Shown: positions 26,897-37,429 of the stretch, one piece after another
Position numbering within the stretch: position 1 is the stretch's first letter
How the letters are laid out: every line of letters starts with the position of its first letter
Assembly (NCBI GenBank): GCA_904420045.1
Contig: CAJFTY010000059.1
Span: 1-64,000, forward strand
Source of the DNA: Candidatus Metaruminococcus caecorum
GTDB taxonomy: Bacteria; Bacillota; Clostridia; Oscillospirales; Ruminococcaceae
Direction: 5' to 3'
Length of the DNA: 64,000 nt
Notes under the pieces: generated by a model
The model's input: the letters and a program-made list of their open reading frames with translations, nothing else
Told to the model about the DNA's origin: nothing
The model's database searches: none
Translations under genes and position numbers: made by a program

Positions 26897-26910
26897 ACAA
26901 AGATGTTTGA

Positions 26911-26938
26911 AAATCCGGGAACTTTGGTTCCCGGATTT
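26911..26938 (+). terminator. Rho-independent terminator of ferritin gene
   Basis: AAATCCGGGAAC TTTG GTTCCCGGATTT TTTG. Confidence 0.85.
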
Positions 26939-26972
26939 TTTGCTTAACAGCATATGAAAAAACGGCTTTTTG

Positions 26973-27035
26973 TTGACATTGCGTTTCTCCTGTGGTACAA
27001 TATCATTAACGATAACATTAACGATAATGTTAATG
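26973..27035 (+). promoter_or_regulatory. Sigma-A promoter with repeated LacI-type operator
   Basis: TTGACA-17-TACAAT, then CATTAACGATAA twice in tandem (27004-27027) and TGTTAATG, partly palindromic. Confidence 0.65.
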
Positions 27036-27083
27036 TGGCATTTTCCAAGGCATTCACAATACTATGATGCAGGAGGAAACAGT

Positions 27084-30000
27084 ATGAAACGTAGAGGAGG
27101 ACGCGCAAAACAAATCTTGACTGCGCTGCTTGCGGCGGCTGTGGCGGGGTCGTCTTTGCTGACGCTGGCGCAGGCAGCAGAGCAAAAGCCCTACAATCAG
27201 GGCCTGTGGGCGGAATATTACAGCGGGGACAATTTTCAGATCTATGTGACGGGAAAAACGGAACAGATCCTGGATTTTCAGTGGACCGATTCCAACAAGC
27301 CCCTTCCGCAACTGGGGCTGGAACACTTTTCCGTGCGTTTTTCGGGTCGGATTTTCGCTCCGGAAACCGGGACGTATGACCTGAGTGTCAACATTGATGA
27401 CGGGGCGAAGGTCTGGCTGGACGGAAATTTGGTGATGGAGGACAAAGGCCCGCATTATCCGGCGGTTTCTTATACCCAGGCGGTCATGGAAAAAGGCAGC
27501 TACCACGACCTTGTAGTGGAGTATTACAACGGGGAACTGGGGGGAACCGCTCAGCTTTCCTGGAAAACTCCTTCCGGAAAATCCGGGATTATCCCGAAAG
27601 AAAACCTGTATATGCCGGATCAGGCGGCGGTTGAATGGAAGGTCAGCGGCAAGCAAATCAGTGCTTCGGCCCGGATGCAGTGCGGGTCAAACGAAACCGC
27701 GGAGCTTGTGCTGGAACGGGTGGGGAAAACCGGCGAGGTTGAGCAGCATTTGACCGCCTCACGCACCGATGCAAATACAATGAGTTGGGAGTCTGAAAAA
27801 ATGGCATATCAGGAAGGCGCTTCTTACAAGGCGTATGTCCTGGGGGAGGACGGGAAAACCCTCTTGTCCTCTGTGCAGGAAAAGCAATATGGAATAGATG
27901 GTATTTTGACGGTCAACTCCGATCAGACTGTGGGAGAAGTCAGCCCTCTTTTGTACGGAGCGTGCATGGAGGACGTCAATCACGAGCTATACGGCGGCAT
28001 CTGGTCCCAGATGGTGTACGGCGAAAGCTTTGCGGAACCCGCTTCTACGATAGCGGTGCAGGCGTTTACCTCCTATGGCGGGACTTGGAATACCAAACAG
28101 GAAAACGGCGTCAACCAGATCACGGTGGACCGCTTGGACGGCACTGGCCCTAAGCTGATGATCGACGGCACCCAGTGCGAATCCGGCGTGGTTTCCGCCG
28201 ATGTGCTGGTGGGCGGAGGCGAAGGCCCTGCGGGCTTTGTTGTTAAGGTCACCGACCCCAGAATCGGAGCAGACAATTTTAACGGTTACGAGGTGGGCCT
28301 GTTAAACAACGCGGTGCGCATCGGCGCCCACCGGTACAACTACACCGCAGTGGGGGACTATCCCTGCAACGCCCCGGCGGGCAGCTGGGCAAATCTGAAA
28401 GTCGCCATGACCAAAAACACCCTGACTGTGTACGTCAACGGGGAAAAGGCGGCGGAGTACACCGATCCCAATCCCTTGGTAAACGGCTCTGTTGGATTCC
28501 GGGCGTGGAACTGCTCCGCGCAGTTTCAAAACATCCGGTTCGGTGCGGACGAAGCGTCCATGAAAGAGATTGAGATCCCGGATTTCAGCCAAAACAAAGT
28601 GAGCGTCAGCGGTATGTGGGAAAGCGTGTTCCGGGGCGGAGCTCAGGGCGAGCTTTCTTTGACAAAAGAGAATCCCTATAAGGGAAGCCAGAGCCAGCGG
28701 ATTGTGTACACCTCCGGCAAAGGCGCGGTGGGCGTCAACAACATGGGACTCAACCGCAAAGGCATGAACTTTGAAAAAGACAAGGCGTACGAGGGATATT
28801 TCTACGCCAGAAGCGATGAGGGCGCGCAGGTTTCTGTGGTACTGGAAAACGCAGACGGCTCCCGGCAGTATGCAAAACAGGCGGTTGCGGTTTCCGGCGG
28901 CGAGTGGAAAAAATATGCTTTCACCATCACGCCGAACGCCAAGGACGCGGCGGGCCGCATGACCCTGGAGCTTGAAAATCCCGGAACAGTGGATTTGGGC
29001 TACGTCTTTTTACAGCCCGGCGAATGGGGGCGGTACAAGGGCCTTCCCGTGCGCAAAGATGTGGGTGAAGCATTGGAAAACCAGCATTTAAGCGTGCTGC
29101 GATTCGGCGGATGCATGGCCAACGCCGAGGGTTACAAGTGGAAAAACATGCTGGGCGATCCGGAAACCCGGCCGGTTTACAAGGGCTGGTGGTATGAGTA
29201 TTCCTCCTTCGGCTTTGGTATCGTGGAGTTTTTAAACCTGTGCGAGGCTTTAGGCGTAGTGGGAATCCCGGACTTTAACGGCCACGAGTCCGCACAGGAC
29301 ATGGCGGATTTTATCGACTTTGCCACTGGCACCGACAAGAACAATCCATGGGTGCAAAAACGGATTGAAATGGGCCATCCCGAGCCCTACAAGCTGCCGT
29401 ACCTGCAATACGGCAACGAGGAAAAGGTCAACCTGGACTTTGCCGGCCGCTTTAACGCCGCCGCCAAAGCCATCTGGGAAAAGGACGACGACATTATCCT
29501 GGTGGTGGGCGATTTTGCTTACCAGCAGCCCATCGGGGACCCCTACAACTTTACCGGAGCGGATTCCGGCATCACCTCGCTGGAGGGGCAAAAGGCGATC
29601 CTGGACCAGGCGGTGAAATATGACCGGGAGGTCTGGTTCGACGTCCACGTCTTTACAGAGACCCAGGGAAATTCCCACCACTATTTCGAAGCGCTGACAA
29701 GCTTTTATTATCAGCTCAAGCAGATCTGCCCCGACGCCAAGGTAAAGCTTCCGATCTTTGAGTTTAACGCCAACACCCACGACGTGGAGCGCGCCCTGGA
29801 AAACGCCTACGGCACCGCCGTGTGTGAGCGGCTCAGCGAGATTTTCCCCATTGTCTGCTCCGCCAATAGTCTGCAGGTGGACGGCCACAACGACAATGCC
29901 TGGAACCAGGGCCTAGTCTTTATGGACAACGACAGCGCATGGATGCAGCCTCCCGGATATGTGACGGGGATGTTTTACGACGCGTACCAGCCCAATTTGG

Positions 30001-30662
30001 TGGAGGCAAGGCTCACCCCTTGGGATCAAAACCTGTCGGTGACGGCCACTGCCAGCGACGACGGCAAAACGGTTGTCCTCAAGTTTGTCAATCAAAATAA
30101 ATCCTCCAAAAACGTGCAGGTGGATCTTGGGGAGTTTACCGGCAATCAAAACAGCGGGACGGTTCGTGTCTTAAAAGGCGCCGCTAAGGCAGTGAACACG
30201 GCGGACAACAAACAGGCGGTGGTTCCCACCTCCCAAACACTGGAAAACCCTGTGCAAAATGGGAAAATGACCATCAAACTGGATGCGTACTCCCTGACGG
30301 TGCTGGAGCTGACCGCCCAGTCCGATCCAGAGCCGCCTGTTTCCTCAGAGGAACAAAGCAGCTCCGAACCCGGAAGCGAATCGGATGGTTCCAGCGCGCC
30401 GGAATCCAGCAAGCCTGAATCCTCCAGCGATGAAAGCGTTCCCCCCCAGCCGGAAAGCTCCACGGCCGGCGAAAACAGTCAGAGCAGCACCCCGGACGGG
30501 CAGGAGCCGGCAGAGGAGCATTCCTCCCGCGGGGAACAAAGCCATCCGGAGGAGCAAAAACCCGCCAATCCCACCACTGGAGGAATCTTCTGCGGGGGCG
30601 CTTTGCTCACCTTGGCAGCCGCATCCTGTGCATTCGCTGTTTACAAAAAGCGCAAAGCGTAG
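27084..30662 (+). CDS. Secreted multidomain glycoside hydrolase: PA14 + GH51-like (alpha-L-arabinofuranosidase-type) with NPTTG C-terminal anchor
   Basis: Signal peptide; PA14 (GLWAEYYSGDNF...); LLYGACMEDVNHELYGGIWSQMVYGESF; YGNEEKVN and IFEFNANTHD as candidate catalytic Glu; Ser-rich linker; NPTTGG-TM-KKRKA; AGGAGG RBS. Confidence 0.8.
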   Translation: MKRRGGRAKQILTALLAAAVAGSSLLTLAQAAEQKPYNQGLWAEYYSGDNFQIYVTGKTEQILDFQWTDSNKPLPQLGLEHFSVRFSGRIFAPETGTYDLSVNIDDGAKVWLDGNLVMEDKGPHYPAVSYTQAVMEKGSYHDLVVEYYNGELGGTAQLSWKTPSGKSGIIPKENLYMPDQAAVEWKVSGKQISASARMQCGSNETAELVLERVGKTGEVEQHLTASRTDANTMSWESEKMAYQEGASYKAYVLGEDGKTLLSSVQEKQYGIDGILTVNSDQTVGEVSPLLYGACMEDVNHELYGGIWSQMVYGESFAEPASTIAVQAFTSYGGTWNTKQENGVNQITVDRLDGTGPKLMIDGTQCESGVVSADVLVGGGEGPAGFVVKVTDPRIGADNFNGYEVGLLNNAVRIGAHRYNYTAVGDYPCNAPAGSWANLKVAMTKNTLTVYVNGEKAAEYTDPNPLVNGSVGFRAWNCSAQFQNIRFGADEASMKEIEIPDFSQNKVSVSGMWESVFRGGAQGELSLTKENPYKGSQSQRIVYTSGKGAVGVNNMGLNRKGMNFEKDKAYEGYFYARSDEGAQVSVVLENADGSRQYAKQAVAVSGGEWKKYAFTITPNAKDAAGRMTLELENPGTVDLGYVFLQPGEWGRYKGLPVRKDVGEALENQHLSVLRFGGCMANAEGYKWKNMLGDPETRPVYKGWWYEYSSFGFGIVEFLNLCEALGVVGIPDFNGHESAQDMADFIDFATGTDKNNPWVQKRIEMGHPEPYKLPYLQYGNEEKVNLDFAGRFNAAAKAIWEKDDDIILVVGDFAYQQPIGDPYNFTGADSGITSLEGQKAILDQAVKYDREVWFDVHVFTETQGNSHHYFEALTSFYYQLKQICPDAKVKLPIFEFNANTHDVERALENAYGTAVCERLSEIFPIVCSANSLQVDGHNDNAWNQGLVFMDNDSAWMQPPGYVTGMFYDAYQPNLVEARLTPWDQNLSVTATASDDGKTVVLKFVNQNKSSKNVQVDLGEFTGNQNSGTVRVLKGAAKAVNTADNKQAVVPTSQTLENPVQNGKMTIKLDAYSLTVLELTAQSDPEPPVSSEEQSSSEPGSESDGSSAPESSKPESSSDESVPPQPESSTAGENSQSSTPDGQEPAEEHSSRGEQSHPEEQKPANPTTGGIFCGGALLTLAAASCAFAVYKKRKA

Positions 30663-30679
30663 TAGGATAAAAGTAGCAA

Positions 30680-30715
30680 TTCCGATCCAAGCAGGGAAGA
30701 TCGCTTGGATCGGAA
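30680..30715 (+). repeat. Intergenic inverted repeat (13-bp stem)
   Basis: TTCCGATCCAAGC agggaagatc GCTTGGATCGGAA. Confidence 0.6.
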
Positions 30716-30758
30716 AATCTACAGGAACCTGCTCACGGAGCGGAGAAAAGGGTGCGGC

Positions 30759-31772
30759 ATGAGCAACAAAAAAAGCGTAACACTCAGGGACATCGCGGAA
30801 AAGACAGGCGTTTCGATCAATACGGTTTCCCACGCGCTGAAGGACAAACCGGATATTTCCGTGAAAACCAGAGAGCGGATCAAACAGGTCGCCCAGGAGA
30901 TGGGCTATATCGGCAACGCCTCGGCGAGCTTTTTGCGCTCGGGGATCAGCAAGACCATTGCCATTATTTTAGGGGATATTTCCAACCCGCATTTTTCCAT
31001 CATGGTCCGGGAAATCGAGACGTTTATCCGTGAATTCGGCTACACCACTTTTATTCTGAACACCGAGGAAAACGAGCAAAATGAGCGGCAGGCGATTGTG
31101 TCCGCCGTGCAGAAAAATGTGGACGGCATCCTGTGGTGCCCCGTCCAGCAAAGCGAGGACAATCTCCGCTTTATCCGCAAAACCGGCGTCCCCTTTGTGT
31201 TGATCGGCCGGCGGTTTCCAAACCGAAACGTGGACTATGTGGTCTGCGACGACGCCAACGGCGGTTTTGTGGCGGCGGATTATTTAATTCAGCAGGGGCA
31301 TCGGGAAATCCTGTTTTTAAACGGCCCCATGCATGTTTCCAGTGCTCAGGAACGACTGCTGGGCTATCAGGGAGCGTATGCCAAGCACGGCCTCGACAAT
31401 CCGGAGCGGCTTGTTTACAGCGGCTGCGCCAGGGCAGGGGAGGCCAGCATTTTGCTGGAAAAGGCGCTGGGGGATAACCTGTCCGCCACAGCGGTGCTGG
31501 CCTTCAGCGATCTGATTGCCTGGGAGGCGATTTTGACCCTCAACCGGATGGGACTGCGGGTGCCCGAGGATATTTCGGTGGTGGGGTTTGACAACATCCA
31601 GTCCCAGTTTTTGTTTCCGGTTCTGTTGACCAGCGTAAGCTCTTCCAAAAGCGCCATGGCCAAAGCCGCTGCTCAGCTGCTTCTAAACCGGATTGAAGAT
31701 AAGGGCGGAGACCCCCAGCATATTGTCATACCAACAAAACTAATCATCAGGGAATCGGTTCGCCGGTTATAG
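30759..31772 (+). CDS. LacI-family transcriptional regulator
   Basis: VTLRDIAEKTGVSINTVSHALKDKPDIS; periplasmic-binding-like sensor domain. Confidence 0.93.
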   Translation: MSNKKSVTLRDIAEKTGVSINTVSHALKDKPDISVKTRERIKQVAQEMGYIGNASASFLRSGISKTIAIILGDISNPHFSIMVREIETFIREFGYTTFILNTEENEQNERQAIVSAVQKNVDGILWCPVQQSEDNLRFIRKTGVPFVLIGRRFPNRNVDYVVCDDANGGFVAADYLIQQGHREILFLNGPMHVSSAQERLLGYQGAYAKHGLDNPERLVYSGCARAGEASILLEKALGDNLSATAVLAFSDLIAWEAILTLNRMGLRVPEDISVVGFDNIQSQFLFPVLLTSVSSSKSAMAKAAAQLLLNRIEDKGGDPQHIVIPTKLIIRESVRRL

Positions 31773-31806
31773 CGGAACCGAATCTGCGAATGGAGTGTCA
31801 GCAAGC

Positions 31807-33843
31807 ATGGATGCACGCGTACAACAGCTTCGGCAAATGATTTTAAAGAAGGCCCACGATCAATACCGAGTGAACATAGAACGTTCCGCCAAAGAATATG
31901 CAACGCTCAATCTGTCGGATGTGGAGCGGGCCTGCCGCCGTCTGTGCGCCATGCTGGAAGCTGAAACTCCCGTGGTGTTCCCAGAAGAACGCATCTGCTA
32001 TACCCGTACCGTGAAAAACCTGTTTCCTCTGTATACCGATGAGGAGTGGGAGGTGCGCTCCAAGCCTTTTGTGTGGGGCGTGGGAAACATCTGCCCGGAT
32101 TATGCCACCACCATCGGCATGGGGCTTAATGCCCAGCGGGAGCGGTGTGCCCAAAAGCTGAAAACCGCGGATGAAAAGCAGCGGGAATTTCTCTCCTGCC
32201 TGATCCGGGATATCGACGCGGTACTGGATTTAGCCCGCCGCTATCGGGAGGAAGCCCTGCGCGTGGGAAACCAAATCGTCGCCGACACCCTGACGCGGGT
32301 CCCCGCCCAAGGGGCCAGAACGTTTTTGGAGGCCCTGCAGTTTTTCCGTATCCTTCATTTCACCCTGTGGTGCGAGGGGGAAAATCACAATGGCATCGGC
32401 CGGTTTGACCAGTACATGTACCCCTATTGGAAGCGGGACATCGAAAACGGCGTTTTGACCGAGGAGGAAGCCTTTTCCCTGCTGGAGGAATTCTTTTTGA
32501 CCTTCAATCGGGATAACGACCTGTACCCTGGAGTGCAGAAGGGAGACAACGGCCAGAGCATGATGCTCGGCGGGGTGGACCGGGACGGAAAGCCCGCGTT
32601 TAACGAGCTGTCCTCCCTGTGCCTGCGGGCCTCCCGGGAGCTTTTGCTCATCGACCCCAAGATCAACATCCGGGTGGATAAAAACACCCCGGCCTCGGTG
32701 TTCTATGAAGGGACGCTTCTCACCAAGCAAGGGCTGGGATTCCCTCAGTACTCCAATGACGACGTGGTGATCCCAGGACTTGTAAAGCTGGGATACAGTT
32801 TGGAGGACGCCCGGGATTACACAGTGGCCGCCTGCTGGGAGTTTATCATCCCCCAGTACGGCATGGAAATTCCCAACATCGACGCGTTCAGCTTTCCCGA
32901 CGCGGTGGATGAGTGCGTGAAGATGCTGGACTCCTTCGACAGCTACGAGGCGTTTTTGGAGGCGCTCAAAGCCCGGATGCAGATTCAGTGCGACCGCCTG
33001 GTGGAGCATGCCAATACAATGACGCTTTTGCCGGCTCCCTTTGTGTCCATGATGATGGATGACTGCGTGGAGCGGGGAGAGGATATCTCCGCCGGGGCGC
33101 GGTACAACAACTACGGGCTCCACGGCGTGGGGCTTTCTGCGGCGGTGGACGCGGTGGAGTCCATCCGGCTGCACGTGTTTGAAAAACGAGATGTCTCCCC
33201 CCAGGAGATGATGGACGCGGTGGAGACCGATTTTGCCGGCCGGCCGGAGCTTTTGCACTTGCTGCGGTATGAAACCCCGAAGTTTGGGGACGGTGATCCC
33301 GAGGTGGACGAAATCGCCAGCCTGTTGGCCGGGCGGTTTGCGGACTGCCTGGAGGGGAAGAAAAACAACCGCGGCGGTATTTACCGGGCGGGCACCGGAT
33401 CCGCCATGTACTATCTGTGGTACGGGGATCACAGTAGAGCCACTCCCGGCGGGCACCGCAAAGGGGAACCTTGGGGGGCCAACTATGCGCCGGAGCTTTC
33501 GGTGCGCAGCAAGGGGCCGCTGTCGGTGATCCAGTCGTTTACTGCGCCTGACCTGATGCGGATAATCAACGGCGGGCCGCTGACCATGGAGTTTCACGAC
33601 AGCGTGTTCCGGGACGAGGAAAGCATCTGGAAGGTGGCGCGTCTGGTGCAGGCGTTTGTACTGCGGGGTGGACACCAGATGCAGCTCAACTCGGTGAACC
33701 GGGAGGTTTTGCTGGATGCTCAGAAGCATCCGGAAAACTATCAGAACTTAATTGTGCGGGTCTGGGGCTGGAGCGCGTATTTTGTCCAGTTGGATAAGAC
33801 CTATCAGGATCACGTGATCGCCCGGCAGGAATTTCAGGTGTAA
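31807..33843 (+). CDS. Glycyl radical enzyme (PFL-like family, substrate unknown)
   Basis: C-terminal glycyl loop IVRVWGWSAYFVQLDKTYQDHVIAR; ACWEF (CxE) candidate thiyl motif; adjacent activase. Confidence 0.87.
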   Translation: MDARVQQLRQMILKKAHDQYRVNIERSAKEYATLNLSDVERACRRLCAMLEAETPVVFPEERICYTRTVKNLFPLYTDEEWEVRSKPFVWGVGNICPDYATTIGMGLNAQRERCAQKLKTADEKQREFLSCLIRDIDAVLDLARRYREEALRVGNQIVADTLTRVPAQGARTFLEALQFFRILHFTLWCEGENHNGIGRFDQYMYPYWKRDIENGVLTEEEAFSLLEEFFLTFNRDNDLYPGVQKGDNGQSMMLGGVDRDGKPAFNELSSLCLRASRELLLIDPKINIRVDKNTPASVFYEGTLLTKQGLGFPQYSNDDVVIPGLVKLGYSLEDARDYTVAACWEFIIPQYGMEIPNIDAFSFPDAVDECVKMLDSFDSYEAFLEALKARMQIQCDRLVEHANTMTLLPAPFVSMMMDDCVERGEDISAGARYNNYGLHGVGLSAAVDAVESIRLHVFEKRDVSPQEMMDAVETDFAGRPELLHLLRYETPKFGDGDPEVDEIASLLAGRFADCLEGKKNNRGGIYRAGTGSAMYYLWYGDHSRATPGGHRKGEPWGANYAPELSVRSKGPLSVIQSFTAPDLMRIINGGPLTMEFHDSVFRDEESIWKVARLVQAFVLRGGHQMQLNSVNREVLLDAQKHPENYQNLIVRVWGWSAYFVQLDKTYQDHVIARQEFQV

Positions 33844-33862: not shown

Positions 33863-33898
33863 AAAAAGCCTTTGCCGTACTGGCGGCAAAGGCTTTTT
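33863..33898 (+). terminator. Hairpin/attenuator between the glycyl radical enzyme and activase genes
   Basis: AAAAAGCCTTTGCCG tactgg CGGCAAAGGCTTTTT. Confidence 0.7.
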
Positions 33899-33930: not shown

Positions 33931-34779
33931 ATGCAGGGGACCATCTTTGACATCAAGGAGTTCACTGTCCACGACGGACCGGGGATCCGCTCGACCATCT
34001 TTCTGAAGGGCTGCCCCCTGCGGTGTATCTGGTGCCATAACCCGGAGGGGCTGTCATCGGCGCCCCAGCTAATGATTACCCAGAACGGATGCACCGGCTG
34101 CGGACTGTGCCGGAAGCCCTGCGATCATCCCCGATGCCAGGGCCTTGGCCGGTGCGCGTTTCGATGCCCGCAGGGACTTGTCAAGATCGCAGGGGAGAGG
34201 GTGGAGGCCAAGGATTTGGCAGACCGAATGCTCCGGCAGCGGGAATTTTTTGAAAGCTCCGGTGGGGGAGTGACCATCTCCGGCGGGGAGCCGCTGTTTC
34301 AGCCCGCCTTTTTAATGGAGCTGTTGGAGCGGCTGGCTCCCCTGCACCGGCTGATCGAAACCTCGGGGTACGCGCCGGAGGAGGTATTCCGCCAGGCGGC
34401 AGAGCGCTGCGAGCATGTATTTTTGGACATCAAGCACCCGGATGATGCGGTTCATCGCCGGGTGACCGGTGTGTCCAACAAACAAATTTTAAAAAACCTT
34501 TCCTACCTGAAGCAAAGCGGCCTCCCCTATACCATTCGAATTCCCTTGATTCCGGGAATCAACGACGATCCGGCGGTGATCCGGCAGATCGCCGGGCTGT
34601 TAAAGGGCGAGCGGGGCGCGCTCCAGCGGGTGGAGTTCATGCCCTACAACCCTTTTGCCCCCGCCAAATATGAAATGACAGGCATGCCCTTTGCCTATAA
34701 AAAGCCTCGGGACAACGATTTGGATTCCCTGCCGCTGGAGGAATTCCATGCGCTGGGGATTCAAACGAAAGTGCTTTAA
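33931..34779 (+). CDS. Glycyl-radical enzyme activating protein (radical SAM)
   Basis: TVHDGPGIRSTIFLKGCPLRCIWCHNPEG; ISGGEPLFQ; Cys-rich insert. Confidence 0.92.
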   Translation: MQGTIFDIKEFTVHDGPGIRSTIFLKGCPLRCIWCHNPEGLSSAPQLMITQNGCTGCGLCRKPCDHPRCQGLGRCAFRCPQGLVKIAGERVEAKDLADRMLRQREFFESSGGGVTISGGEPLFQPAFLMELLERLAPLHRLIETSGYAPEEVFRQAAERCEHVFLDIKHPDDAVHRRVTGVSNKQILKNLSYLKQSGLPYTIRIPLIPGINDDPAVIRQIAGLLKGERGALQRVEFMPYNPFAPAKYEMTGMPFAYKKPRDNDLDSLPLEEFHALGIQTKVL

Positions 34780-34821: not shown

Positions 34822-34865
34822 AAAGGAAAGAACCCTGTGAAATTTTTCACAGGGTTCTTTCCTTT
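34822..34865. terminator. Bidirectional terminator (21-bp perfect stem) between convergent genes
   Basis: AAAGGAAAGAACCCTGTGAAA tt TTTCACAGGGTTCTTTCCTTT. Confidence 0.85.
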
Positions 34866-34879
34866 ATAAATGCTTTTTG

Positions 34880-37429
34880 CTATTTCCGTTTTTTCGCGTA
34901 GACAAGGCACCCGCCCGCGGAAGCGATCAGCAGGACGCCCAGCCCCCACATAGCGGGAGCGGAGGTTTGCGGATTGCTGCCGTCCGGATTGCCGGATCCG
35001 TTTGTACCGGGATCTTCCGTGCTGGTGCTGCCAGCCGGATTGTCGGAAGAAATGTTGTCATCCGGTTCGGAGGAATCCTGATCGCCGGGCGTCTCGGGCT
35101 TAGAGGAATCCTGCTCCGAAGAACTGTCTTCCTCCGGTTTGGAGGGAGTGCTGGGAGTGGAGCTTTCGCCCTGCTCCAGTTTTTGGATGGCTTTGACAAG
35201 GTCCGCCAGCTTGGTTGTCAGTTCGGTCCCGATCAAAGCTTTTTGCTCGTCGGTCATGGCTTCCAGTTCCTGGGCGGCTTTTTCCACCGCAGCTTTATGC
35301 TCCAAAGTGACTTTGTCTGCGGATGGCAGGTCAGAAATCGTCTGTTTTAGGGTTTCGGCCTGGGCCTTTTGCGCTTTGGCCTGGGCGGCCAGCTTTAAAA
35401 GCGTTTCCTTCTGAGCTTTGTACTCCTGCGCCCGGTCCTCCGGCAGGGAGTCGATATCCCGCAGCAGGGCGTCGATCTGATCCGCCTGGCCGATCAGGCT
35501 GTCGGTCTGTTTTTCCATCTGCGCAGTCAGCCCTTTGATGTTCTGGGCGAGATCCACAATAAACTGGGCGTTGGAAACCCATTTGCCATTTACAAAATCC
35601 CGTCCACGCACCAAAACTTTGTCGGTGTACACTTCTACATAATAGCCCTGGCTGCCCTCTTTGCCCACTTCCTCATCGGTCCAGAGGTATCCCACAGAAG
35701 CGTCGTTAAACATGTTGGCATCCACGCCGTTGCCGGCGTACATGGGACTTTTGGAATCCAGTTCCCAGTGGGTGTGTCCGGTAATAAAGATGGTCTGGGG
35801 ATACTGCTTGAAGATCTCCCGCAGTTCCTTGTCCTGATACACGCCGTCCCAGTTCTGACCGGGGAGAGTTCCGGAAACCGTATTGTACAGCGGCTGATGC
35901 AGGAACACAAAGACAGGGTTCATACCATCCGACGCTTTTTTGAGCTCAGCTTTCAAAAAGTCTAGCTGGTCTTTGTTGAGCTGCGCGTGGCAGTCGGCGG
36001 GCTCCACGATCTGGGATCCCAGCATAATAAAGGTAGCATCGCCGATTTTTTTAGAGTAGTAGGTGCTGGGAGCATTGGTGCCCTCCAGAAAATCGTTGAT
36101 CTCTTTTTCGTAGTTCGATCCCTTTAAGTCGTGGTTGCCAGGGGTGCAGTAGATATAGGGAATGCCGTCAAAGCTGTTGACGATGTCGTTATACTGCTTA
36201 TACTGGGCGATGTCGCCGGTGTCCGCTACGTCGCCGGAGTTAATGATGGCAATGCTGTCCGGGTCATTTTTCTCAATATCCGCCAGAGCCATCCGCAGGT
36301 GCTGGTTGTGAAGGTGGTTGGCATCAGACTGAATATGCGTGTCGGAAAACGCCTGGAAGGAATAAAGCGGTTTTTCCTCCACTGCGGCGCATCCCTTGGG
36401 AAGCTCGGTATACACCGACTGGGGGGACTGCGTGCGTCCGTCGTACACTGCGAAGGCATAGAGACGGGTGGCTCCATAGGGAATCATGGTGTTGTCGTTT
36501 AACTTGTGGGTGACAGCGCCGTTTCCGGCTTTGACGGGGATCTCGGAGTATTCCTCAAACACGCCGGAGTCATCGCCCCAGTACAGCCGGTAGCCGGTCA
36601 GGCCGGCGGTTTGATCGCCGGGGGTGACGGTTACCGTTCCGTCCGCGTATCCCTGGCGGGCGGCGGTGCGGTTGTATTCCACTTTTTTAGGAGCGTAGCA
36701 CTGTGAAGGATCCCGGTCTTTTAAGGTAAAGGTACAGGTGGCCACAATGTTATAGGCGCCGTCCGCAAACAGATAGACGTAGTAATCTCCCACCGGAAGC
36801 TGATCGATGGTGGTGGTGCCGTCAGCCTGCTTTAGGTCGGTGGAGCCGTTTGGCTGGCCGATCTGACGGGTGTATTTCCACACCAGCGACGGATTGTCCG
36901 CTCCAGGGGTTTTCCGGTCGGCGGGATAAATGCCGATCCAGGCGTCGTTGTGGGTACTGCCCGTGTAAGAGATCACCGGCCGTTCGCCTTCCTCGTAAAC
37001 CGCCTTGTCGGTGGAAATGGAAGGGCCGGACTGCTTGATGACAAAGGAGGTTTTTGCCAGGATATCATATCCGTCGTTTTTCAACAGGTACATGTCATAG
37101 TTTCCAGGAGCCAGATCCTTGACGTCCCCCCGGTCGGTGTCCTTAAAATCCATGGTGCCGTCCGGCTGACCTGTTTTCGAGGTGTACTCGTAGACAATGG
37201 ATTCAGGGCCGCCGGGCTGATCCCCCTGCTTGTAGATGGCAATCCAGTCCTTGCCGCTGGCGCCGGTGTAATCGGCCTTAATTTCTTCCCCCTGGATAAA
37301 TTCTGTTTTTGCAAGGCGCAGGGTAGGGGCGTCGGCCGCAGAGGGAAACACGGCTGAGGCGCATAAAATCCCCATCGACAGCGCCGCGGCGGCAAACCGC
37401 CGCCAGATGTGCTTACCATTCATAACCAT
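34880..37429 (-). CDS. Secreted metallophosphoesterase with two tandem N-terminal beta-type repeats and NPQTS C-terminal anchor
   Basis: Signal peptide; DTHI...GDVAD...GNHD...GHTHWE metallophosphatase motifs; NPQTS-TM-KKRK tail. Confidence 0.82.
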   Translation of the reverse strand: MVMNGKHIWRRFAAAALSMGILCASAVFPSAADAPTLRLAKTEFIQGEEIKADYTGASGKDWIAIYKQGDQPGGPESIVYEYTSKTGQPDGTMDFKDTDRGDVKDLAPGNYDMYLLKNDGYDILAKTSFVIKQSGPSISTDKAVYEEGERPVISYTGSTHNDAWIGIYPADRKTPGADNPSLVWKYTRQIGQPNGSTDLKQADGTTTIDQLPVGDYYVYLFADGAYNIVATCTFTLKDRDPSQCYAPKKVEYNRTAARQGYADGTVTVTPGDQTAGLTGYRLYWGDDSGVFEEYSEIPVKAGNGAVTHKLNDNTMIPYGATRLYAFAVYDGRTQSPQSVYTELPKGCAAVEEKPLYSFQAFSDTHIQSDANHLHNQHLRMALADIEKNDPDSIAIINSGDVADTGDIAQYKQYNDIVNSFDGIPYIYCTPGNHDLKGSNYEKEINDFLEGTNAPSTYYSKKIGDATFIMLGSQIVEPADCHAQLNKDQLDFLKAELKKASDGMNPVFVFLHQPLYNTVSGTLPGQNWDGVYQDKELREIFKQYPQTIFITGHTHWELDSKSPMYAGNGVDANMFNDASVGYLWTDEEVGKEGSQGYYVEVYTDKVLVRGRDFVNGKWVSNAQFIVDLAQNIKGLTAQMEKQTDSLIGQADQIDALLRDIDSLPEDRAQEYKAQKETLLKLAAQAKAQKAQAETLKQTISDLPSADKVTLEHKAAVEKAAQELEAMTDEQKALIGTELTTKLADLVKAIQKLEQGESSTPSTPSKPEEDSSSEQDSSKPETPGDQDSSEPDDNISSDNPAGSTSTEDPGTNGSGNPDGSNPQTSAPAMWGLGVLLIASAGGCLVYAKKRK

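Follow-up and report, generated by a model that had tools for sequence, protein, structure and literature searches.

An oxygen-sensitive glycyl radical enzyme (GRE) encoded at 31807-33843 of the window, by which we mean the whole 64,000-nt stretch of DNA analysed here, belongs to a monophyletic clade of short GREs, apparently uncharacterised and lying inside a known superfamily, whose members probably act as eliminases, cleaving a C-O bond in a sugar of plant origin or in a derivative of such a sugar. The clade, its predicted fold, its conserved catalytic residues, the gene order and a shared operator motif were established by computation. The operon, its LacI operator and the link to arabinofuranosidases, all absent from the initial annotation of this DNA, are the most informative on function.

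Gene and predicted operon in the window

The open reading frame was found where the initial annotation had placed it, and both motif stretches quoted there, DYTVAACWEFIIPQYGMEIPN and IVRVWGWSAYFVQLDKTYQDHVIAR, were recovered exactly. Matches to the Pfam domains PFL-like (335 bits) and Gly_radical (69 bits) exclude a chance reading frame. Translation from the ATG at 31807, which has GGAG 11 nt upstream, gives 678 aa; an alternative in-frame GTG at 31795 would give 682 aa. Residues are numbered here in the 682-aa frame (minus 4 for numbers counted from the ATG), with Cys347, Glu349 and Gly658 as the catalytic positions. The following features make up the gene's surroundings.

26910-26939, plus strand: terminator-like hairpin, 13-bp perfect stem and T run, after an upstream ferritin-like gene (repeat search, sequence)
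26973-27001, plus strand: consensus sigma-70-type promoter, TTGACA-17 nt-TACAAT (sequence reading)
27005-27036, plus strand: tandem LacI-type operator, ATTAACGATAAC ATTAACGATAAT GTTAATGT = ATTAACGATAACATTAACGATAATGTTAATGT (repeat search, sequence)
27084-30662, plus strand: secreted multidomain GH51-like alpha-L-arabinofuranosidase (Pfam; start codon from sequence)
30759-31772, plus strand: LacI-family transcriptional repressor with a periplasmic-binding-protein-like sugar-sensing domain (Pfam, NCBIfam; start codon from sequence)
31807-33843, plus strand: GRE of 678 aa with RVWGW and ACWEF motifs (Pfam, predicted model, alignment)
33863-33898, plus strand: terminator-like perfect inverted repeat of 15 bp with T5 at its end, in the gap between GRE and activase (repeat search, sequence)
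33931-34779, plus strand: GRE activase, a radical SAM protein with CX3CX2C and an auxiliary cluster domain (Pfam, NCBIfam)
34822-34865, no strand assigned: terminator-like hairpin of 20 pairs, after the activase (repeat search, sequence)

The spacing of these genes and the position of the terminators suggest that the genes for the GH51-like protein, LacI, GRE and activase are co-transcribed from the promoter at 26973-27001, in a predicted operon bounded upstream by the hairpin at 26910-26939 and closed by that at 34822-34865. The operator directly follows the promoter and includes ACATTAACGATAATGT at 27015-27030; its tandem form occurs once in the genome to which the window belongs. The LacI protein would act on this operator as a repressor. 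Between the GH51-like gene and the LacI gene no operator-like site was found, only a hairpin (30673-30722), which is imperfect, 20 nt long and 85% complementary, with a 10-nt loop and without a T run. The GH51-like protein itself combines PA14, ASD1, Alpha-L-AF_C and carbohydrate-binding domains with a C-terminal anchor. Convergent with the operon, a large secreted calcineurin-like phosphoesterase, also with a C-terminal anchor, is encoded at 34880-37429 on the minus strand.

The activase scored 262.8 bits against TIGR02494 (cut-off 174.35), and the hairpin at 33863-33898 would reduce its expression relative to that of the GRE. An activase-family gene is present in 57 of the loci fetched for relatives of the GRE. 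Seven Cys in the auxiliary cluster region, typically with CxHxxC, were observed in 46 of the 53 clade activases with the motif, where eight are usual; a few (e.g. in L007 and L022) retain all eight. Altered iron-sulfur ligation is possible in the seven-Cys proteins.

The WGW clade and its active site

The protein fits no named NCBIfam family, since its best scores, 320 bits for the PFL2-3 subfamily (cut-off 678) and 315 bits for HypD (cut-off 1100), lie far under the equivalog cut-offs; among HypD, CutC, sulfopropanediol dehydratase and arylacetate decarboxylase, for which the best score was that of HypD, no cut-off was reached. The nearest relatives of known structure share about 24-26% identity, and no characterised RVWGW homologue was detected in the PDB, with no chain above 26% identity among the fold matches listed. 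A close match to a characterised GRE, which would have spoken against the initial annotation, was not seen.

That annotation had stressed the Trp on both sides of the radical Gly. Both are present. However, the published C-terminal fingerprint of GREs, RVXG[FWY] (PMC11528403), is satisfied by RVWGW at Gly658 and already allows Trp after the Gly, so the motif alone is less unusual than had been claimed. Likewise, the short length of the protein is real (678 aa, against about 759-897 aa for most structure-known GREs found in the search) and is shared by clade members, mostly of about 640-726 aa, but other GREs of 659-732 aa exist without WGW. What is distinctive in the clade is the combination of the invariant WGW pair, C-W-E, short length and altered pocket residues.

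A scan of one-genome-per-species contigs yielded 152 coding relatives, 80 loci of which were fetched. In a set collected by similarity and not by motif, R[VI]WGWS was found in 77 of 77 members with an intact C-terminus and A-C-W-E in 78 of 78; WGW is lacking in two rows, of which one is a truncated ORF and the other a different GRE. A larger set of 98 sequences, partly chosen by the WGW motif, has C347, W348, E349, G658, R531, D251, N252, K289, N291, Y319 and H443 without exception. In the family alignment no Cys other than Cys347 is invariant. In the comparison with the PDB, the family profile reached 376 bits at most, against about 1080 bits for members. In a tree with glycerol dehydratase (GD), propanediol dehydratase (PD), HypD, CutC, YbiW, PflD and orphan GREs, the family formed one clade with 100/100 support on a long stem, apart from all the characterised GREs placed there; the tree was midpoint-rooted with several long-branched orphan rows, and the sister group of the clade is not resolved in it. 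Hosts are metagenome-assembled genomes labelled Clostridia, Oscillospiraceae, Lachnospiraceae, Planctomycetes (Thermoguttaceae), Verrucomicrobia and Lentisphaerae, many of them from animal guts. The distribution is patchy: the clade occurs in 19 of 388 genomes sampled across the window's class, but in 2 of 61 in its nearest circle, the window's own genome included. Gut genomes are rich in GREs without an assigned function (PMC11574389). In the open-access literature no match was found for the WGW clade, for a link between GREs and arabinofuranosidases, or for GREs combined with deoxyribose or pentitol chemistry.

The window's own genome carries further radical enzymes. One is an orphan GRE on a very long branch, with KTGCNWCAVPG and RVTGYSAFF (contig C49; L003:34-1821); in addition, C18 carries an NrdD-type gene and C20 a strong match to Gly_radical that is PFL-like by score.

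The reading of the active site as C-x-E instead of the Cys-Cys of pyruvate formate-lyase holds for the GRE, in which residues 345-349 are A-A-C-W-E with no adjacent Cys-Cys pair, as well as for all 78 members. A C-C cleaving enzyme of the pyruvate formate-lyase kind, which the common PFL-like and Gly_radical domains might suggest, is therefore hardly conceivable: the catalytic pair is missing, the score against the PFL equivalog is 65.6 bits (cut-off 994), and the gene on C20 is a separate, PFL-like one.

An AlphaFold2 model built from 45 family sequences (pLDDT 91, pTM 0.92) gave GD, PD, PflD and HypD, all eliminases, as best Foldseek matches; these and CutC group with the model at 22-26% identity and a query TM-score of about 0.86-0.89, and across many GREs that score is 0.85-0.89. 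Alignment with GD shows that Glu435 and His281 are kept (Glu349 and His198), whereas His164 is changed to Asn98, Ser282 to Asn199 and Tyr640 to an invariant Gly535, and the loop bearing Asp447 is about 8 residues shorter. In GD, His164, Ser282 and Asp447 bind the substrate; their counterparts were located by the alignment. Together the changes suggest a remodelled, perhaps roomier, pocket. The model is least certain at segment 249-252 (below 50), which holds the invariant Asp251 and Asn252, and this low confidence would fit a loop ordered by substrate.

These residues also bear on whether the enzyme dehydrates a small diol (glycerol, 1,2-propanediol or ethylene glycol) in the fermentation of sugar breakdown products. 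GD and PD are its best matches in sequence and fold, and Cys-x-Glu is retained, but the loss of GD His164, Ser282 and Tyr640 and the shortened Asp447 loop argue against such a substrate, and no microcompartment or propanediol-type genes were noticed near the GRE in the neighbourhoods examined. We consider this function quite unlikely; judged by active-site residues, small-diol dehydration and pyruvate formate-lyase chemistry are both disfavoured.

Operator sites and gene neighbourhoods

The operator was searched for as the 16-mer ACATTAWCGWTAATGT with up to two mismatches, with the reversed pattern as control. The own genome holds two sites (control, one). The only perfect one is at the operon; the other (C16:18331, one mismatch) is followed after about 52 bp by the start of a gene that adjoins a GH3 gene and encodes a secreted protein of 1456 aa, in which a GH127 beta-L-arabinofuranosidase domain scored 239 bits. 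Across 94 family loci, seven matches with at most two mismatches lay in the 300 bp upstream of the GRE, where the rate in the remainder of the same sequence predicts 0.12. The motif recurs ahead of the GRE or LacI in several other species; loci that bear it include L116, L118, L119, L120, L121 and L125, and in L005 a site heads a LacI-GRE-activase cluster. Elsewhere, genome G136 has a one-mismatch site in the gap separating LacI from a divergent operon for a sugar ABC transporter, which includes a GH88-like gene, and a two-mismatch site in G236 heads a related transporter operon; the latter is supported only by where it lies, two-mismatch matches in G236 being no commoner than in the reversed control.

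The GRE of the own genome is thus probably switched by LacI together with the GH51-like and GH127 arabinofuranosidases, and its substrate would most likely derive from arabinofuranose-containing plant glycans. This predicted regulatory link of a GRE clade to plant-glycan breakdown is new. In the same genome, whose assembly is about 92% complete, no match to AraA_N was found, and an ORF of about 500 aa is a distant relative of Fucose_iso_C (sub-threshold match). The idea that the GRE replaces the canonical arabinose pathway was dropped in view of that ORF and of the incompleteness of the assembly.

In other genomes, GH127-type genes adjoin the GRE (L022, L060, L063, L126), a GH51 gene follows the activase (L023), and raffinose-synthase/GH36-like genes lie beside or near the GRE-activase pair (L014, L015, L017, L032, L039, L048, L115, L119, L124, L125, L126). 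A XylE-like sugar porter is encoded directly upstream of the GRE in L007, L008, L045 and L058; L025, L033 and L049 hold, not every gene in each, an MglBAC-like transporter, a mutarotase, FucI-like isomerases, a class II aldolase and xylulokinase. FGGY kinases occur among the neighbours in some loci, and in six an SGNH hydrolase gene separates GRE from activase. For DUF4867 a role in ketose metabolism, as mutarotase or ring isomerase, has been proposed (PMC11968277). In L015 and L041 it either flanks the GRE-activase pair or sits inside it, and in L032 and L057 it lies near the GRE. A sulfosugar substrate was considered from the latter family and rejected, since DUF4867 is also widespread in ordinary aldose/ketose clusters (PMC11968277) and the isomerases fall far under the sulfoquinovose isomerase cut-off.

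The shared theme of these neighbourhoods is sugar and glycan use and not one set pathway: many loci hold only GRE and activase, and no single-pathway enzyme recurs across all of them. The glycosidases near the GRE are of arabino-, galacto- and GalNAc-type, and this variety makes it uncertain that the whole clade uses one substrate derived from arabinose; the arabinose link is best supported in the own genome, and the substrate may vary across the clade. Gut Clostridia are moreover rich in glycosidases, which makes GRE neighbours alone weak evidence.

One locus (L057:777-11638) carries, besides the GRE, IolB (above cut-off), a PfkB kinase, a class II aldolase, DUF4867, an FGGY kinase and a fused electron-transfer flavoprotein, possibly a deoxy-sugar-acid pathway. 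An inositol substrate was considered from it and rejected, IolB being present in this locus only.

Two further orphan GREs accompany a sugar cluster and a single activase in L125:11792-13798 (minus strand), L154:4957-7020 (minus strand) and L161:3945-8121. Encoded in these clusters are an FGGY kinase and a protein resembling SMP30, GH43 is close by, and one genome adds a DeoC-type aldolase and a dehydrogenase; the L154 cluster is preceded by an operator-like site, again of this LacI type. Their layout is like that of threonyl radical enzymes, for which tandem GREs with one activase have been reported (PMC11528403), but unlike them the L125 and L154 rows retain the Gly. The DeoC-type aldolase, FGGY kinase and dehydrogenase were pursued as a lead from the same LacI-type regulon; this was abandoned, as they are grouped with the two orphan GREs and DeoC was seen in one genome only.

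Proposed chemistry and comparison with known systems

In eliminase GREs such as GD, PD and HypD, a Gly radical, a Cys thiyl and a Glu base are the accepted catalytic scheme, and the conserved residues suggest that it would apply to the WGW clade. The activase would generate a radical on Gly658, which would abstract an H atom from Cys347; the resulting thiyl would remove the hydrogen of a carbinol C-H in a sugar or in a polyol derived from one, Glu349 serving as base on the substrate OH. The ketyl radical would then lose an adjacent C-O group, be it a hydroxyl, the ring oxygen or some other oxygen substituent, giving a deoxy-keto or deoxy-aldehyde product usable by ordinary kinases and aldolases. 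It is in this sense that we infer C-O elimination and a sugar-type substrate.

The same residues and neighbours can be read as a thiyl-radical sugar epimerase or isomerase, in which Cys347 removes H and returns it with inversion, leaving the C-O bonds intact. No GRE is known to act in this way. Aldose/ketose genes and mutarotases surround the GRE in several loci and many operons lack another catabolic enzyme, yet another H donor would have to act from the opposite face, Cys347 is the sole invariant Cys, and the kept Glu base is typical of eliminases, which makes this function very improbable.

Precedent for the proposed sugar chemistry is provided by E. coli YbiW and PflD, which cleave C-O bonds in anhydro-sugar phosphates (PMC12441222). 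The clade might contain ring-opening lyases of this type (1,5-anhydroglucitol-6-P for YbiW, 1,5-anhydromannitol-6-P for PflD), an assignment favoured by the same fold, by PflD being among the top structural matches, and by the presence in some clusters of class II aldolases and of kinases of the FGGY and PfkB types. It is nevertheless unlikely: both enzymes fall outside the clade in the tree, with PflD about 24% identical; no PTS component, FsaA or GldA was noticed in the neighbourhoods listed, unlike at E. coli pflD/ybiW; and the transporters of several loci are of MFS or ABC type, which bring in sugars without phosphorylating them.

Within the preferred reading, C-O elimination on a plant-derived sugar, a bolder version can be put forward tentatively, namely that a radical sugar dehydratase or 'glycoside lyase' cleaves C-O bonds in sugars that are intact and unphosphorylated, or in glycosides themselves. 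If true, this would constitute an unrecognised anaerobic route for plant polysaccharides, parallel to hydrolases and isomerase/kinase pathways. If the clade acts on sugars at all, fibre fermentation would include radical chemistry and give rise to unusual deoxy-sugars or to products of their fermentation. A practical handle is offered by the dedicated LacI repressor, since finding its ligand would make the substrate nearly known.

Among known systems, pyruvate formate-lyase (1h16) shares the superfamily and radical chemistry with the WGW enzyme, which differs in lacking the Cys-Cys site and in its very weak score. HypD is a C-O eliminase GRE and gave the second best NCBIfam score, but its substrate class does not fit the genomic context found here. 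PflD and YbiW are likewise GREs of sugar metabolism that cleave C-O bonds (PMC12441222), on separate branches of the tree and with PTS and FSA-type neighbours in E. coli, of which none was noticed around clade GREs. GD (PDB 1r8w) and GRE-type PD (5i2g, 9rco) have in common with it the barrel fold, Cys-x-Glu, the glycyl loop and a dedicated activase; by comparison, the WGW enzyme is 24-26% identical and about 100 residues shorter, has several pocket residues replaced or deleted, and stands beside a glycosidase and a LacI repressor instead of in a diol pathway.
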